A program made the translations under genes and the position numbers. A DNA stretch of 33,638 bases from an uncultured Erysipelotrichaceae bacterium (GTDB lineage: Bacteria > Bacillota_I > Bacilli_A > RF39 > UBA660): assembly GCA_902801685.1 (NCBI GenBank), contig CADCIZ010000010.1:1-33638 (forward strand). The letters run 5' to 3'. How positions within the stretch are numbered: the stretch's first letter is position 1; each line of letters starts with the position of its first letter. Shown one piece after another: positions 320 to 7,459 of this stretch. The notes beneath the pieces are model-generated. The model saw nothing but the letters and a program-made list of their open reading frames with translations. It did not search any database and had not been told where the DNA came from.

Positions 320-403
320 AATAGTTTATCCTTTCAATTTTATTTTATTATATTTTTATGATAAACTATTAACTGTAATCTGGGGAGATTATACAGTTAA
401 TAG
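320..403 (-). promoter_or_regulatory. Two mutually exclusive hairpins at transposase 3' end
   Basis: Hairpin 1 pairs 366-381 with 386-403 (GGGG loop on the plus strand, two-base bulge) and contains the transposase stop codon at 389-391. Hairpin 2 pairs 360-370 with 320-330 (11 bp, perfect) and covers the ribosome site of the 64-aa gene. The two share bases 366-370, so they cannot both form fully. This is visible in the sequence; a role in translational coupling or in termination is inference. Confidence 0.5.
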
Positions 404-1441
404 CTGTGGCTTAGGAAAGTTGATATTATCAATTTCATAAGCCGTTTTTATTTTGTCTAGAGGTGAATATCCTCTAGTTTTAATCTCTGTATTAATATAG
501 TTATTTATATACTCGGTTGTATATTTAATTAATGATTTATTATCTACTATATCATCCCAAGCTAGGCAATCTCTTTCTATAGACCAATGAAATGTTTCTA
601 CATCACTATCATAAGTCGGACAGGCTGGTGGATTAGTTTTATGCTTTCTAAAATTTTCTTCAATATACAATGTGAATTTACTAGTTTCTGGCTCTTTTCC
701 CTTTGTATGGATATATTTATTAGTAAACTCAGGCCCATTATCTGTTTGTATCTTTATTTCTTTTAAATTAAGATATTTAAACTGATTTAAGAAATTATAT
801 AAAACTTTTTCTAGAAACATTTTTGTATATGTTACTGATTTTTCATTACAATAAGCTACTATTGGAAATCCAGTAGCTATATCTCTTGCAGTTATTTGAT
901 ATTTAGCTAAGCTTCTATCATTGTCTTTTTTAAAATATGGTTTTAAATTATCTATATCCGTTAAATATTTAATATCTACTTGCCAATACATGAATGGTTT
1001 GATTTTTCGCTTCCAACTAACATCAGATTTTTCTTGAATGTGTTTCTTATTCTTTTTACCATTACAAGATGCATTAATATATCTATTAATTGTTGTATCA
1101 GAATAATCATTAATTTTAGTAGTTTTTCTAATATTATTAACAGTAATATATTTTTTCTTTTCTTTAGCTACATCTACACATTCTTTAATTTTGATTATAT
1201 CTTGTTCTTTTATTCTGTTAGGTGAATTTTTAGGACGTCTAGATAAATCTTTTAAACCTTTAATACCATGTAACGCATATCTTCTACACCACTTTTTTAC
1301 TACATTTTTAGAACATCGATAAAGTCTAGCAGTTGGTTTAAATCCTATTTTATGAGCACTTCTAACCATTTCTAATCTTTTATCAACTATTAGTTTTTCG
1401 TTTGTTGTATTAAGATACATCTCTTTATAACTTGACCACAT
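389..1441 (-). CDS. IS481-like DDE transposase (rve integrase fold)
   Basis: A 350-residue transposase. The N-terminal ~110 residues look like helix-turn-helix DNA-binding modules. The catalytic RNase H-like domain shows Asp156 in the motif WQVDIKYL, Asp234 in QTDNGPEF and Glu282 in SDVETFH, which would form the DDE triad. Length is close to that usual for IS481/rve transposases. The start is backed by AAAGGAGG eight bases upstream (minus strand). The frame is intact, so the copy may be active. I could not define terminal inverted repeats or a target duplication, so element ends are unknown. It sits immediately upstream of, and divergent from, the T-box/gatCAB operon. Confidence 0.85.
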   Translation of the reverse strand: MWSSYKEMYLNTTNEKLIVDKRLEMVRSAHKIGFKPTARLYRCSKNVVKKWCRRYALHGIKGLKDLSRRPKNSPNRIKEQDIIKIKECVDVAKEKKKYITVNNIRKTTKINDYSDTTINRYINASCNGKKNKKHIQEKSDVSWKRKIKPFMYWQVDIKYLTDIDNLKPYFKKDNDRSLAKYQITARDIATGFPIVAYCNEKSVTYTKMFLEKVLYNFLNQFKYLNLKEIKIQTDNGPEFTNKYIHTKGKEPETSKFTLYIEENFRKHKTNPPACPTYDSDVETFHWSIERDCLAWDDIVDNKSLIKYTTEYINNYINTEIKTRGYSPLDKIKTAYEIDNINFPKPQLLTV

Positions 1442-1548: not shown

Positions 1549-1577
1549 TTGACAAAGTGGGGTAATTACTTTATAAT
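1549..1577 (+). promoter_or_regulatory. Sigma-A-type promoter of the T-box/gatCAB operon
   Basis: Consensus TTGACA (1549-1554), a 17-base spacer and consensus TATAAT (1572-1577). It is the only near-perfect promoter upstream of the leader. Transcription is expected to start near 1584. Confidence 0.9.
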
Positions 1578-1584
1578 TAATTCG

Positions 1585-1790
1585 TAGCTGTTTTTTGGGG
1601 ATTAATACTATAAATGGAAGAGTAGTAATATAAACTGATTAAAGCGAGTTAGGTATGGTGGAAGCTAACAATTAAGTATATTATGAAGAACAACCATTTG
1701 GTGCGTTTGCCGGGGAAGCCCGTTATATCTAATGAGAGGTCAATTTTTTGGCAATTTGGGTGGCACCGCGTTTATTCGTCCCAAAGTAGC
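1585..1790 (+). promoter_or_regulatory. T-box leader, probably specific for tRNA-Asn
   Basis: Stem I can be drawn directly. AAATGG at 1614-1619 pairs with CCATTT at 1694-1699, and TAATATA just above pairs with TATATTA. Between them is a loop with AGTA-type bases on the 5' side and TGAAGAACAA on the 3' side (1684-1693). This matches the S-turn plus specifier layout. The specifier reads AAC (Asn, 1689-1691), overlapping GAA (Glu, 1688-1690). An AGCGAG and a GGTGGAAG segment form the distal part. The T-box proper, GGGTGGCACCGCG, is at 1758-1770; its TGGC bulge has C1764 to pair with a G discriminator base. TTTGGG/CCCAAA (1755-1760/1780-1785) closes the antiterminator. I see no canonical competing terminator with a T run before tRNA-Asn starts at 1801. 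Confidence 0.88.
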
Positions 1791-1800
1791 GGACAGTAAT

Positions 1801-1876
1801 GCTTAATTAGCTCAGTTGGTAGAGCACTCGGCTGTTAACCGATAGGTCGTAGGTTCGAGTCCTACATTAGGCGCCA
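1801..1876 (+). tRNA. tRNA-Asn (GTT)
   Basis: A cloverleaf can be drawn by eye: 7-bp acceptor GCTTAAT/ATTAGGC, anticodon loop CTGTTAA with anticodon GTT, G73 discriminator and encoded CCA. It starts about 15 bases after the T-box antiterminator and precedes gatC by 55 bases, so it is inside the leader transcript of the operon whose enzymes make its Asn. Confidence 0.95.
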
Positions 1877-1931
1877 TTTGATAATTACAAGTCCGTTGGA
1901 CTTGTTTTTTTATATTATAAAGGAGGATATT

Positions 1932-2228
1932 ATGGAGAAGTTTACAAAAGAGATGGTAGATGATTATGCAGATAAGTTGTTAATTGGTCTAACAGATGAG
2001 GAGAACAAAATGGTTTTAGATGAGTTCAATATTATTGATGCCGATATTGCGAAGGTAATGGAGATTGATAATATTGAATCAGTAGAACCTATGACACATA
2101 CATTGGACGATTTTGTGTATGAGTTAAGAGAAGATGTAATTGAAGAGTCAGTAGATATTGATGATTTACTAGCTAACTGTGATGATTATATTAATGATGA
2201 GGTTAGAGTGCCAAAGGTGGTGGAATAA
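1932..2228 (+). CDS. gatC: Asp/Glu-tRNA amidotransferase subunit C
   Basis: 98 residues, the usual GatC length. The N-terminal helix region resembles the family pattern and the middle carries the hydrophobic/acidic belt (around EPMTHTLDDFVYELREDVI) where GatC normally has its 'P..H...N.LR.D' segment. GatC wraps around GatA-GatB and stabilises the complex. I chose the ATG at 1932 because AAAGGAGG lies eight bases upstream; the longer frame beginning at 1878 has no ribosome site. The stop overlaps the gatA start by one base (TAATG), indicating translational coupling. Confidence 0.85.
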   Translation: MEKFTKEMVDDYADKLLIGLTDEENKMVLDEFNIIDADIAKVMEIDNIESVEPMTHTLDDFVYELREDVIEESVDIDDLLANCDDYINDEVRVPKVVE

Positions 2229-3691
2229 TGGAATACATGAGTAAAAGTATTGAAGAATTACACGAATTATTAAAAAATGGTGAAGTAACTAGTGAAGAAC
2301 TAATTAAAGAATCATTAGATAAAGCTCATAAAAATCAAGATGAGTGTAATAGTTTTGTAACAATTATGGATGATGCAAAAGGAACTAAGGTAACTGATGA
2401 ATTATTATCAGGAATACCTTATGGAATTAAAGATAATTATTCAACTAAAGGAATACTATCTACAGGATCATCTAATACATTAAAAGACTATGTACCATTT
2501 TTTACTGCTACTGCAATTAGTAATCTAGAAAGTAAGGGAGCAGTAGGAGTTACAAAGTGTGCGATGGATGAATTTGGTATGGGTGGTACTGGTACTACAT
2601 GTCACACTGGTACTGTTTTAAATCCATGGGATAAAACTAGAATGACGGCTGGATCTTCGGCTGGTTCTGCCGCTTCGGTTGCAGCTGGAGTATATCCTTA
2701 TGCAACTGGTTCTGATACCGGAGATTCTATTCGTAAACCTGCTGCATACTGTGGAATTGTTGGATATAAACCTACATATGGTATGATTTCTCGTTATGGA
2801 TTATTTCCATTTGCTTCAAGTTTAGATCATTGTGGTTGTCTAACAAGATCTGTTAAAGATGCTGCAATTGTTGTTGATGGTATGAAAGGTATAGATAAAA
2901 ATGATATGACTAGTTGGGATTCTAGTAATATTAATCTATATAAATCTATTACCGGAGAAGTTAAAGGTAAAAAACTTTGCTATATAAAAGAGTTATGTGA
3001 TATAAATGAGTATCCAAATGCAAATGATGAATTAAAAAAACACTTATCTAATTTTATGGATGTGCTTGAAAAATGTAAAAGCATTGGTATTGAAGTAGAA
3101 GAAGTTAGTGTCGATAAAAAACTACTTGATGCACTTGCATCAGTTTATGTAGTTATATCATGCGCAGAGGCAACTAGTAATATGTCTAACCTTACAGGAT
3201 TTATCTTTGGACCTAGAGGAGAAGGAAAGAATTATATTGAAATGATGAAGGATCACCGTACTAAAGGATTTTCTCCGCTTATTAAAAGAAGATTTGTAAT
3301 TGGATCTTATGTATTACAGGCCCAAAATAAAGATAGATATTTCCATAATGCACAAAGAGTTAGAAGATTGCTTGTAGATAGATGGAAAGAACTATTTAAA
3401 GATTATGATGCAGTAATACTTCCAGTAGGTTCTGGTCCAGCTAAAAGGTTAGATGGTTCAAAAGATATATTAGATGAAAATACTAAGGCATTAGAAGAAC
3501 ATTTACAAATTGGAAACTTTGGAGGATTTCCTTCAATTACTATTCCAGATGGCTTTATTAATGATTTGCCTGTTGGATTAAATATTACCGGTAATTGTTA
3601 CGATGATGTAAATGTATTAAATATTGCTCATGCAATAGAATCTACTATGCCTTATAAAGGACAAATTGCAAAGGAGGCGTGCCATGAGTAA
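2228..3691 (+). CDS. gatA: Asp/Glu-tRNA amidotransferase subunit A
   Basis: 487 residues, full length for GatA. The amidase-signature Ser-cisSer-Lys triad is visible: Lys68 (GIKDN), Ser144 (AGSSAGS) and Ser167 (TGDSIR). GatA releases ammonia from Gln, which is channelled to GatB to amidate Asp-tRNA-Asn or Glu-tRNA-Gln. The residue before the nucleophile is Asp166 where the family usually has Gly (TGGSIR); the codon GAT is clear. The start is coupled to gatC by a one-base overlap and the 3' end overlaps gatB by eight bases. Confidence 0.95.
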   Translation: MEYMSKSIEELHELLKNGEVTSEELIKESLDKAHKNQDECNSFVTIMDDAKGTKVTDELLSGIPYGIKDNYSTKGILSTGSSNTLKDYVPFFTATAISNLESKGAVGVTKCAMDEFGMGGTGTTCHTGTVLNPWDKTRMTAGSSAGSAASVAAGVYPYATGSDTGDSIRKPAAYCGIVGYKPTYGMISRYGLFPFASSLDHCGCLTRSVKDAAIVVDGMKGIDKNDMTSWDSSNINLYKSITGEVKGKKLCYIKELCDINEYPNANDELKKHLSNFMDVLEKCKSIGIEVEEVSVDKKLLDALASVYVVISCAEATSNMSNLTGFIFGPRGEGKNYIEMMKDHRTKGFSPLIKRRFVIGSYVLQAQNKDRYFHNAQRVRRLLVDRWKELFKDYDAVILPVGSGPAKRLDGSKDILDENTKALEEHLQIGNFGGFPSITIPDGFINDLPVGLNITGNCYDDVNVLNIAHAIESTMPYKGQIAKEACHE

Positions 3692-5141
3692 ATATAAAGC
3701 ACTTATTGGTTTAGAGATGCACTGTGAAATAAGTGAGACTAATACAAAAGTATTTTCTAGTGCTGAAAACTCTTATAAAGATATTCCAAACTCTAATATT
3801 AGACCTGTTGATATGGCTTTTCCAGGAACACTTCCTATTGTAAATAAAGAAGCAGTTAAAATGGCTTTAAAAGCATCAATGATTTTAAATTGTAAACAAC
3901 CAGAATATATGTATTTTGAAAGAAAGAATTATTATTATCCTGATTTACCTAAGGGTTATCAAATTACGCAAGAGACTAAACCCGCTCCAGTTGGAATTTA
4001 TGGTAAGTTAGAATACGAATGCAAAGGTGAGAAGAAAATAGCGGTTATAAATAATCTTCACCTAGAAGAAGATGCTGCATCTACTGATCACTATTCATCA
4101 TATTCAACAATAGATTATAACCGTGCGGGAGTACCTCTTCTGGAGTTAGTTACAGAACCATGTTTCCATTCAGCTGATGAAGCAGTATCTTTCTTGGAAA
4201 CCATGAGAAGTATTTATCAATATGCTGGTATTTCAGAAGCAGATTCTAGAAAAGGACAAATTAGATGTGATGTAAACGTATCTATTATGGATGATAGTTT
4301 AGATGAGTCTGATATGAATAACTGGGGTACTAAAATTGAGATTAAAAATGTTAACTCTTTTGGTGGCGTTAGGGATGCTATTAATTATGAAATAGATAGG
4401 CAAACTGAACTTAAAGAGAATGGTGAATATGATAAGATGGAACAACAAACAAGGCGTTGGGATGAAGATAGTCTATCTACTATTTACATGCGTAGTAAAG
4501 TTGATGCTATTGATTATAAATATTTTGTTGAACCAAATATTCCTAAATATAAAATTTCTAAGGAATGGTTAGAACAAATTAGAAAAGATATTCCAGAACT
4601 TGCAAGTGAAAGAAAAGCAAAATATATTCAAAAATATGGATTATCTGATTATGATGCAACTATTATAGTTAAGGAAAAAAACGTATCTGATTACTATGAA
4701 GAAGTAATTAAATTAGGAGGAAATCCTAAAAAAGCATCTAACTGGTTAACATCAGTTATACTTGGACATTTAAATAAATATGATATTGGTATTAATGAAA
4801 TATATCTAACTCCTAAAATGCTATTTGATATTATGAATATGGTTGAGACTGGTAAAATATCATCTAAACAAAGTAAAGATGTTTTATATAAATGTTTATC
4901 TGATTGTAAAGAACCTCAAGTAATAGTTGATGAATTAGGATTAAAACAAGTAGGGGATGAAGATACGATTAGACCTTTAGTAATTGAAATACTAGATGCT
5001 CACCTAGATTTAATTGAAGAATATCGTAAAGGTAGAAATGTATTTGATTTCTTTGTAGGGCAAGTTATGAAAGCTACTCGTGGTCAAGCAAATCCAAGTC
5101 TAACTGCAAAAATAATTAAAGAAGAAATAGACAAAAGGTAG
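3684..5141 (+). CDS. gatB: Asp/Glu-tRNA amidotransferase subunit B
   Basis: 485 residues. The N-terminal signature ALIGLEMHCEI, the segment YYYPDLPKGYQITQ and the Glu-rich HLEEDA region are typical of GatB's kinase-like catalytic cradle. The C-terminal tail domain with GQVMKATRGQANP matches the helical/YqeY-like tRNA-binding part. GatB phosphorylates the misacylated amino acid and transfers ammonia to it. ATG 3684 is preferred over TTG 3666 because AAGGAGG (3670-3676) lies just upstream of it. It overlaps the end of gatA by eight bases. Confidence 0.95.
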   Translation: MSKYKALIGLEMHCEISETNTKVFSSAENSYKDIPNSNIRPVDMAFPGTLPIVNKEAVKMALKASMILNCKQPEYMYFERKNYYYPDLPKGYQITQETKPAPVGIYGKLEYECKGEKKIAVINNLHLEEDAASTDHYSSYSTIDYNRAGVPLLELVTEPCFHSADEAVSFLETMRSIYQYAGISEADSRKGQIRCDVNVSIMDDSLDESDMNNWGTKIEIKNVNSFGGVRDAINYEIDRQTELKENGEYDKMEQQTRRWDEDSLSTIYMRSKVDAIDYKYFVEPNIPKYKISKEWLEQIRKDIPELASERKAKYIQKYGLSDYDATIIVKEKNVSDYYEEVIKLGGNPKKASNWLTSVILGHLNKYDIGINEIYLTPKMLFDIMNMVETGKISSKQSKDVLYKCLSDCKEPQVIVDELGLKQVGDEDTIRPLVIEILDAHLDLIEEYRKGRNVFDFFVGQVMKATRGQANPSLTAKIIKEEIDKR

Positions 5142-5164
5142 TAAATAAAAATTTGGGGGATTTA

Positions 5165-5704
5165 GTGAATAACGAAGTTTATAATTTAGATGATTTATAT
5201 ATATTTGAGTTATATGAAAAAGCATATGATGATGAGTATTATGATGGTAGTATTGATTACTATGTGAAGAATACATTCTTTACTTTAAAAGGTTATTGCG
5301 TGTGTTATATAGATGATAATAAGAATGTAATAGACACAATAACTAATAAAGAGTTAAAGATATTTTCTAATGATTTAAATGATAAAGAACAATTTATATT
5401 TTGTGATATATATCGAAAAATAAACTATTATGTAGTTGATGGTTCAAAGAATATAGATGTATCAAGACATGTATTACTAGAACTATGGAATATAGTAAGA
5501 GATAATTTACAGGTAGAAAATAGAGATAAATATAATCAATTATTTTATATGTCTGTTCCAATAATTGATAAAGGATATTATCCTAAAAAAGATGCTATGA
5601 TATATTATAGTGAAATAGAAGATTACTATGATGAGTATAATGAATATAGAAAAGAATTAGTTTTAATGCCTAAGGGTGTTAATAATAAAAATATAATAAT
5701 GTAA
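5165..5704 (+). CDS. Unknown acidic protein between gatB and aspS
   Basis: About 179 residues, rich in Tyr, Asp and Glu, with no signal peptide, membrane segment or motif I recognise. The only plausible start is GTG at 5165 after a GGGGGA site (5155-5160); spacing is short, so an alternative TTG at 5153 cannot be excluded. It is 23 bases after gatB and 15 bases before aspS, so it is co-transcribed with the Asn-tRNA pathway. A role in that pathway is possible but rests on position only. Confidence 0.75.
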   Translation: MNNEVYNLDDLYIFELYEKAYDDEYYDGSIDYYVKNTFFTLKGYCVCYIDDNKNVIDTITNKELKIFSNDLNDKEQFIFCDIYRKINYYVVDGSKNIDVSRHVLLELWNIVRDNLQVENRDKYNQLFYMSVPIIDKGYYPKKDAMIYYSEIEDYYDEYNEYRKELVLMPKGVNNKNIIM

Positions 5705-5719
5705 AAGAAAGGAGATATT

Positions 5720-7459
5720 ATGAGTAAATATCGCAATCGTTATTGTGGAAAAATAAATGAAAAAGATGTAGATAATAAAGTTGCAGTTGCAGGATGGATT
5801 GCAAATATCAGAGACCATGGAGGAGTAATATTTGTTGATGTAAGAGATTATACAGGGATTATTCAAGTAGTAAGTAATGATGATTCTATATTTAAAGGAC
5901 TTACTAAAGAATCAGCAGTAACAGTAACTGGAACTATTAGAAAAAGAAATAAGGATGATTATAATGATCATATCTCTACTGGTACTGTTGAATTATTAGT
6001 AGAAAAGTTGGAGGTATTAGGTACTGCTCCTAATGAACTTCCTTTTGAAATACTTAAAAGTAAAGAAGTATCTGAGGATGTTAGATTAAAGTATCGTTAC
6101 CTAGATTTACGTAATGAAAAAGTTGGTAATACTATTCGCATGCGTAGTGAACTTTTAAAGTTTTTAAGAAATGAAATGGATTCTATGGATTTCACTGAAG
6201 TACAAACCCCAATAATTACGGCATCTTCTCCAGAAGGAGCTAGAGACTTTATAATTCCATCACGTAAGTTTAAAGGTAAGTTTTACGCACTTCCACAGGC
6301 ACCTCAAATATTTAAGGAAATACTTATGGTAAGTGGTTTTGATAAATATTATCAAATTGCGCCTTGTTTTAGAGACGAGGATTGTCGTAGTGATAGAACT
6401 TTGGAATTTTATCAATTAGACTTTGAAATGGCTTTTGTAGATGAAGAAGATGTATATAAAATAGGAGAGAAAGTATTCTATGATACATTTACTAAATTTA
6501 GTGATAAAAAAGTATCAAAGGCGCCTTTCAAACGTATCAGTTATAAAGATGCAATGTTAAAATATGGTACAGATAAACCAGATTTAAGAAATCCACTTGA
6601 GATAATTGATTTATCTGATATATTTGAAAATAGTGATTTTAAACCATTTAGAGGTAGTATAGTTAGAGGTATTAAAGTAGATGATATTGGTACTAAATCA
6701 AATAGTTGGTTTAATGAAATAGTAGCTTATGCTAAAACTATTGGCATGCCTGGTATTGGATATATTACAGTAAATGATGATTTATCTTTTAAAGGACCTA
6801 TCGATAAGTTCTTAACAGATGAAGATAGAAAGAATTTAATTGATAGAGCAGAATTAAAAGAAAATGCCGTATTATTCTTTATTGCTGATAGAAAAGAGAA
6901 AGTTGCAGCTAAACAAGCAGGGATGATTAGAATAGAATTAGGTAAACGTCTAGAATTAATAGATGAGAATGTATTTGAATTCTGTATCATTAACGATTTT
7001 CCAATGTTTGAATATAATGAAGAAGAAAAGAAATATGATTTCTGCCACAATGCATTTTCAATGCCTAAAAATGGTATAGAAGCATTTGATAAAGAGAATA
7101 TTGATGATATAATTGCAAGTCAGTTTGACTTTGTATGTAATGGTAATGAAATGGCATCAGGAGCAGTACGTAATCATAGTGTAGAAGCATTAGAAAAAGC
7201 ATTTAGCATGGTTGGATATGATAAGAGTATTGTAAAAGAAAAATTTACATCTTTATATAATGCATTTAAGTTTGGTGCACCTCCTCATGCTGGTATGGCT
7301 CCTGGAATTGATAGAATGATTATGTTACTTAGAGGAGAATCTAACTTAAGAGAGGTTCAAGCATTCCCGATGAGTGTATCAGGGGCAGATATGATGATGA
7401 ATGCACCATCTAGCGTTACTGAATTACAATTAAGAGAGGCTCATATTAAGTTAAGATAA
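5720..7459 (+). CDS. aspS: Aspartyl-tRNA synthetase, probably non-discriminating
   Basis: 579 residues, bacterial-type class IIb AspRS. Order: OB-fold anticodon domain (about 1-110), catalytic domain with motif 2 (CFRDEDCRSDR), a bacterial insertion domain, and motif 3 (GMAPGIDRMIMLL) with the C-terminal signature ending ELQLREAHIKL. His33 in RDHGG corresponds to a position where non-discriminating AspRSs, as described for Pseudomonas, carry His rather than Leu (from memory). With GatCAB in the same operon this supports charging of both tRNA-Asp and tRNA-Asn. AAAGGAGAT lies before ATG 5720. Confidence 0.95.
   Translation: MSKYRNRYCGKINEKDVDNKVAVAGWIANIRDHGGVIFVDVRDYTGIIQVVSNDDSIFKGLTKESAVTVTGTIRKRNKDDYNDHISTGTVELLVEKLEVLGTAPNELPFEILKSKEVSEDVRLKYRYLDLRNEKVGNTIRMRSELLKFLRNEMDSMDFTEVQTPIITASSPEGARDFIIPSRKFKGKFYALPQAPQIFKEILMVSGFDKYYQIAPCFRDEDCRSDRTLEFYQLDFEMAFVDEEDVYKIGEKVFYDTFTKFSDKKVSKAPFKRISYKDAMLKYGTDKPDLRNPLEIIDLSDIFENSDFKPFRGSIVRGIKVDDIGTKSNSWFNEIVAYAKTIGMPGIGYITVNDDLSFKGPIDKFLTDEDRKNLIDRAELKENAVLFFIADRKEKVAAKQAGMIRIELGKRLELIDENVFEFCIINDFPMFEYNEEEKKYDFCHNAFSMPKNGIEAFDKENIDDIIASQFDFVCNGNEMASGAVRNHSVEALEKAFSMVGYDKSIVKEKFTSLYNAFKFGAPPHAGMAPGIDRMIMLLRGESNLREVQAFPMSVSGADMMMNAPSSVTELQLREAHIKLR

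Follow-up and report, generated by a model that had tools for sequence, protein, structure and literature searches.

A T-box for tRNA-Asn whose expression platform appears to be split by the gene for its own ligand

T-box riboswitches normally switch on the genes behind them when the tRNA that they sense is uncharged. The T-box of the C. acetobutylicum gatCAB/aspS operon reportedly carries an overlapping Glu codon (work of Saad from 2012 and 2013). On the aptamer side, a T-box is defined by a specifier that matches a tRNA of the pathway, a UGGN bulge that faces the discriminator-CCA end of this tRNA, and a structure that competes with the antiterminator. The competing structure is an intrinsic terminator in the transcriptional class and sequesters the ribosome-binding site in the translational class, while a trp-type attenuator has alternating 1:2, 2:3 and 3:4 pairings, the last of which is a terminator. 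The stretch of DNA analysed here (33,638 nucleotides, referred to as the window) carries a leader with the specifier AAC and a tRNA-Asn(GTT) to match, a UGGC at 1761-1764 that complements the G73-CCA end of tRNA-Asn (GCCA), and a hairpin, 1:2, that competes with the antiterminator. This hairpin is not an intrinsic terminator, having no U-run before the tRNA, and the gatC ribosome-binding site (1920-1926) lies beyond both the tRNA and a terminator. The alternating pairings of the trp type, including a 3:4 terminator, are all present, and the leader, which in a trp-type attenuator encodes a peptide with regulatory codons, is taken up by the T-box. As far as its sequence tells, the locus is a T-box on the aptamer side and would belong to neither platform class. 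We propose, as the probable reading, that it is a tRNA-Asn T-box with its own ligand's gene dividing the expression platform, and with a four-strand relay as in trp attenuation. Its parts in the window are as follows.

1549..1577, forward strand: promoter TTGACA-17-TATAAT, 12/12 consensus matches, perfect sigma-A type
1601..1786, forward strand: T-box leader (aptamer and antiterminator), RF00230, 92.9 bits, E 3e-21
1689..1691, forward strand: specifier AAC (Asn), in the frame GAA-N-AAC
1755..1785, forward strand: antiterminator from the Rfam alignment, predicted at -6.8 kcal/mol
1755-1760/1780-1785, forward strand: antiterminator helix A1 (Rfam alignment)
1761-1767, forward strand: antiterminator bulge UGGCACC (Rfam alignment)
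1768-1770/1777-1779, forward strand: antiterminator helix A2 (Rfam alignment)
1777..1782, forward strand: strand 1, the antiterminator 3' strand, CGUCCC, of which CGUCC is invariant in 34 distinct loci
1787..1794, forward strand: strand 2, leader UAGCGGAC, partner of strand 1 (putative OFF state) or strand 3 (putative ON state)
1796..1800, forward strand: outer part of strand 2, GUAAU, abutting the tRNA and pairing with 1884-1888
1801..1876, forward strand: tRNA-Asn(GTT) with CCA encoded, the sole tRNA-Asn found in the assembly
1884..1888, forward strand: outer part of strand 3, AUUAC, partner of GUAAU
1891..1898, forward strand: strand 3, GUCCGUUG, the terminator 5' arm and loop
1887..1911, forward strand: intrinsic terminator 3' of the tRNA (strands 3:4 and U7), -9.8 kcal/mol
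1932..2228, forward strand: gatC (AAGGAGG at 1920-1926), TIGR00135, 39.8 bits, under the cut-off of 47.1
2228..3691, forward strand: gatA, TIGR00132, 429 bits, under the cut-off of 481.1 but the best family by far
3684..5141, forward strand: gatB, NF004012, 552 bits, above cut-off
5153-5704: open reading frame of 183 aa between gatB and aspS, without an NCBIfam match
5720..7459, forward strand: aspS, the genome's second AspRS, NF001750, 725 bits, above cut-off

Transcription would start at about 1585. Just 5' of the promoter lies what appears to be a transposase-like open reading frame (389-1441, minus strand), and a 13-bp inverted repeat (1487-1518) stands between the two. The 183-aa frame is found in some relatives at 27-67% identity. 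The single tRNA-Asn of the window looks like a fusion of two tandem copies of sister genomes, its 5' half (GCTTAAT) being that of copy 1 and its 3' half (ATTAGGC) that of copy 2; the cause may be a genuine deletion or a collapse during assembly, and the argument below is unaffected.

An earlier, sequence-only reading of this DNA had described a T-box with an AAC specifier, abutting its cognate tRNA-Asn(GTT) and followed by gatCAB-aspS. These observations hold: the T-box and the tRNA are 14 bases apart, and the downstream genes were identified by NCBIfam/TIGR matches. That reading had also called for a survey of related genomes, and the adjacency proves to be meaningful and conserved, with 39 further GTDB species sharing it. 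Scanning 84,980 GTDB species for a T-box and a tRNA D-arm within 25-55 bases, we obtained 87 stretches, 39 of which hold an Asn T-box before tRNA-Asn without an ordinary terminator in between (40 loci, counting the window). Because the scan needed exact motifs and a gap of 25-55 bases, this species count is a lower bound. In nine other stretches a U-run terminator (runs of 4-7 Ts) precedes tRNA-Asn, tRNA-Phe or another tRNA. The remaining matches (Sphingobacterium, Streptomyces and others) were discarded as chance, showing no T-box landmarks. In L062 and L107, both from Ruminococcus, a T-box with a terminator is followed at most 20 bases later by a tRNA-like sequence that is either untyped or unreported by ARAGORN.

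All 39 further loci come from uncultured Bacilli-type MAGs, and the arrangement is found in uncultured gut bacteria; in the window's family it occurs in 14 of 291 sampled genomes and 7 of 150 genera. The tRNA is Asn wherever ARAGORN could type it, and in L095 and L109 by the visible anticodon arm, with one or two copies per locus. The next gene, where readable, is gatC-gatA (gatCAB) or asnS. An asnS-type gene follows in five loci, recognized in L041 by an NCBIfam asnS match of 573 bits and in the other four (L054, L082, L098 and L121) by similarity.

The covariance search that had been suggested for the leader returned RF00230 at a score 0.1 under its gathering score of 93, and the 12 homologous loci of the same arrangement that were scanned all score above the window, at 115-141 bits. 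The specifier motif GAA-N-AAC is found in 34 of the 40 loci and was read by eye as GAANAACAAC in six loci of the window's genus; the bulge is UGGC in 35 loci and UGGU in 5. A two-codon Asn/Glu T-box, with overlapping GAA and AAC, was considered and rejected: the window has GAAC, without conservation across loci. Because the base 5' of AAC varies (T in 28, G in 4 and A in 2 of 34 loci), a second (Glu) codon is not conserved.

The platform is where the locus departs from the described classes. The sequence-only reading was right that no hairpin with a U-run separates the T-box from the tRNA, but wrong that a terminator is lacking: a hairpin (1887-1905) and seven Ts (1905-1911) stand between the tRNA and gatC, and covariation ties this terminator to the T-box. 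The evidence that this reading had named against itself, 3' ends before 1801, was sought on the wrong side of the tRNA. The post-tRNA terminator, with a stem of the AAG(U)CC/GG(A)CUU type after the last tRNA, is present wherever the 3' side could be read (36 of 36 loci). The link between an AAGUC-type trailer and a T-box is not exclusive: among 15 pattern matches, 4 are tRNA-Asn genes that stand alone, end in a short terminator of their own and show no T-box.

Could the 1:2 hairpin itself still terminate weakly, or act as a Rho-type pause site, with the tRNA and the operon attenuated jointly in the ordinary way? T-rich spacers are retained in a few loci (U5 in L066, U4 in L111), and real terminators before tRNA-Asn exist in L050, L069 and L056. 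However, the spacers between T-box and tRNA are on average A-rich (41% A, 27% T), their longest T-run has a mean of 2.3 and is 1 in the window, and among the 40 loci only L066 has an intact U-run terminator before the tRNA. We regard joint attenuation as the least probable of the readings weighed here.

The window genome has nine T-boxes in total. Eight of them are followed by a U-run at a distance of 8-11 nt, whereas at this locus the distance is 118 nt. TBDB was built from Rfam and GeConT3 matches that were extended by 50 nt and trimmed to the U-run (PMC7778990); because the U-run here lies 118 nt away, surveys that extend 50 nt may miss such loci. In six of the eight other T-boxes (L002, L003, L004, L005, L007 and L009), the predicted terminator encloses the whole antiterminator, on a base stem formed by the stem III 3'-strand region and the strand just before the U-run. 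These six would switch between stem III and the base stem, unlike the textbook layout.

In place of a terminator directly after the T-box, the leader has a GGAC strand, the one that in an ordinary T-box would complete the terminator. It complements both the antiterminator 3' strand and, in the post-tRNA terminator, the 5' arm and the loop (36/36 readable loci). Its first pairing, the 1:2 hairpin, is formed in 88.7% of cells, as opposed to at most 54% in slid controls, and is without covariation because strand 1 is invariant. In the window and in L012, the hairpin can reach the first two bases of the tRNA, and in the genomes checked this operon is the sole source of tRNA-Asn. Both facts would suit a switch in which the T-box fold decides if the 5' end of the tRNA is free, charging thereby controlling the maturation of tRNA-Asn and hence its own synthesis. 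In most loci, however, the hairpin stops well short of the tRNA and is followed by an unpaired spacer, and this reading leaves the covariation of the trailer unexplained; we consider it very improbable. The idea that the 1:2 hairpin controls how the tRNA folds was rejected, since the hairpin reaches into the tRNA solely in close relatives of the window. The idea of the sequence-only reading that the switch acts by other means survives in part: there is no ordinary terminator just after the T-box, but control through release or folding of the tRNA finds no support.

The second pairing is the leader:trailer helix 2:3. In the window it joins UAGCGGAC to GUCCGUUG and GUAAU to AUUAC, a duplex of -13.0 kcal/mol. 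An additional, outer helix on the tRNA side is frequent among the loci. Across 34 distinct loci, 86.6% of cells are paired (75.4% in shuffled sets and at most 50% in slid controls), double changes fall in 38 cells where 19 are expected, and the covariation score is 0.470 versus 0.270 in shuffled sets; none of 500 shuffles reaches the observed values of pairing, double changes or covariation. Cognate duplexes have a mean energy of -12.1 kcal/mol versus -8.4 for permuted ones (z -9.4, P = 2e-4, the floor of the test), with z -7.4 in 24 dissimilar loci and z -5.7 for the outer helix alone. Pairs p4-p6 exceed permutation (z 4.5); as these positions are largely loop in both the 1:2 and the 3:4 hairpin, 2:3 is their main explanation. 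At least 7 two-sided changes from one pair to another are placed on a tree built from the aptamer only. Locus L148, fetched after the model had been stated, has 10 contiguous pairs and the outer helix, at -15.2 kcal/mol.

The helix is often interrupted past five or six core pairs, and a control of another kind, L053 (tRNA-Phe), gave a z of -3.2 without explanation. Because loci within a clade are not independent, the permutation P values are optimistic, and the slid controls and the aptamer tree are the better guide. At the level of sequence comparison, the structure comprising the T-box, the leader:trailer helix and the terminator is well supported.

A helix that encloses a tRNA, and that in the window reaches up to the first tRNA base, could instead serve precursor processing, for example by steering RNase P or RNase Z or by slowing them; the terminator would then be constitutive, and the T-box would act only in this way or be decaying. 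An effect of the helix on RNase P processing is possible. Leader pairing that extends the acceptor stem, or adjoins it, reportedly hinders the binding of RNase P (PMC9433436). Yet processing would not need the 5' arm and loop of a terminator, nor the competitor strand of an antiterminator, and the helix goes with the T-box, no leader:trailer pairing being present in the window's other two tRNA arrays or in L014. We consider this reading improbable.

Returning to the relay, we found the predicted energies to be in the order that it needs. The 1:2 hairpin (mean -11.7 kcal/mol) is more stable than the antiterminator (mean -7.6) in 35 of 36 loci. The 2:3 duplex is more stable than 3:4 in 27 of 35 loci and less stable in 8, a count that leaves out L041, and the 3:4 mean of -9.2 kcal/mol, to be set against -12.1 for 2:3, counts L041 as zero. 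In the window, 1:2 is predicted at -8.3 versus -6.8 kcal/mol for the antiterminator, and the whole folds at -37.9 (ON), -34.1 (OFF) and -36.8 kcal/mol (antiterminator with terminator). Given these small margins, repression in the window is likely to be partial and may be leaky.

Because this energy order and the mutually exclusive pairings fit, we propose a relay in which 1:2 would be the OFF and 2:3 the ON pairing. Strand 1 is the antiterminator 3' strand (CGUCC), strand 2 the leader just 5' of the tRNA (GGAC and flank), strand 3 the 5' arm and loop of the post-tRNA terminator (GUCC and flank) and strand 4 its 3' arm with the U-run; 2:3 pairing excludes both 1:2 and 3:4. With tRNA-Asn charged, the antiterminator would be lost to 1:2, strand 2 would be occupied, strand 3 would be left free, and 3:4 would form and stop transcription 3' of the tRNA. 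Uncharged tRNA-Asn would bind the specifier (AAC) and, through GCCA, the bulge (UGGC), holding strand 1 in the antiterminator; the freed strand 2 would pair with strand 3 around the tRNA as strand 3 emerges, the terminator would be blocked, and gatCAB-aspS (asnS in some species) would be transcribed. The model keeps the usual T-box polarity.

The alternative pairing that is conserved links the leader with the post-tRNA terminator, so that read-through into gatCAB-aspS is the step predicted to be controlled. The tRNA-Asn would be transcribed, and thus spared, in both states, and a loop in which its charging state governs its own synthesis, as the sequence-only reading had imagined, is therefore not favoured. 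A weak point is that RNase P might sever strand 2 from strand 3 ahead of terminator synthesis; hindrance of the enzyme by leader pairing would help the switch. In a doubtful extension of the model, the 2:3 helix would in addition hold the acceptor end of the tRNA as it is made and slow RNase P. Asn starvation would then direct the transcript towards gatCAB expression at the cost of immediate tRNA release, and the riboswitch would set read-through while timing the maturation of its own ligand.

The genomic context gives such an arrangement a rationale. In the window genome, no asparaginyl-tRNA synthetase passes the family cut-off. AspRS is encoded twice, under the Asn T-box (5720-7459) and, in G000:C42, under an Asp T-box (specifier GAC); the window operon is therefore a complete Asn-tRNA-Asn module. 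In 24 genomes with this arrangement (some of the assemblies are incomplete), no tRNA-Asn(GTT) was found outside it, and sparing tRNA-Asn makes sense because it is encoded nowhere else in them. A T-box is switched on by its tRNA; if the only tRNA-Asn genes stood behind a tight T-box terminator, their expression would depend on their own product, a bootstrap problem that this layout would solve. Synthesis of the tRNA appears to proceed in either state, with the switch deciding whether the charging enzymes are made as well.

Regions 5' of gatA in relatives show what would be the steps between the layouts. L015, L023 and L024 have a T-box and an ordinary terminator directly 5' of gatC; L014 has a T-box and terminator, followed by a second promoter, tRNA-Asn and another terminator; and the window's genus has a T-box without a terminator, two tandem tRNA-Asn genes, a terminator and gatC. 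Within the same family, L050, L069 and L056 (tRNA-Asn) carry a full T-box terminator directly before the tRNA. In L052, L053, L073 and L094 (tRNA-Phe) an ordinary T-box terminator precedes the cognate-type tRNA, and a pheS-like gene follows in L053. A strict rule that the pre-tRNA terminator is lost when the locus is the only tRNA-Asn source was rejected, because in G150 and G397 a terminator still precedes the sole copies of tRNA-Asn that were found.

In the open-access literature, we found no description of a ligand gene within a riboswitch platform or of antitermination relayed across a tRNA gene. The locus resembles the transcriptional T-box (RF00230) in its Stem I and specifier, UGGN bulge, antiterminator, competitor strand and terminator, and in an operon that charges the sensed tRNA. 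It differs in that the competitor strand has no U-run and in that termination falls to another hairpin, which lies past one or two tRNA genes and is coupled by the leader:trailer helix. Like the C. acetobutylicum gatCAB/aspS T-box, it is an Asn T-box 5' of a transamidation operon; unlike it, it has no conserved second (Glu) codon (34 loci), and the open-access account consulted describes no tRNA gene within the platform of that T-box (PMC4052509). The seven T-boxes with ordinary terminators named above likewise adjoin a cognate tRNA gene, but their terminator stands 5' of the tRNA, and the tRNA itself should therefore be attenuated. With the trp-type attenuator, the locus shares a relay of mutually exclusive pairings that ends in an intrinsic terminator, whereas here the relay would be set by a tRNA-sensing riboswitch instead of a translating ribosome, and tRNA genes part strands 2 and 3.
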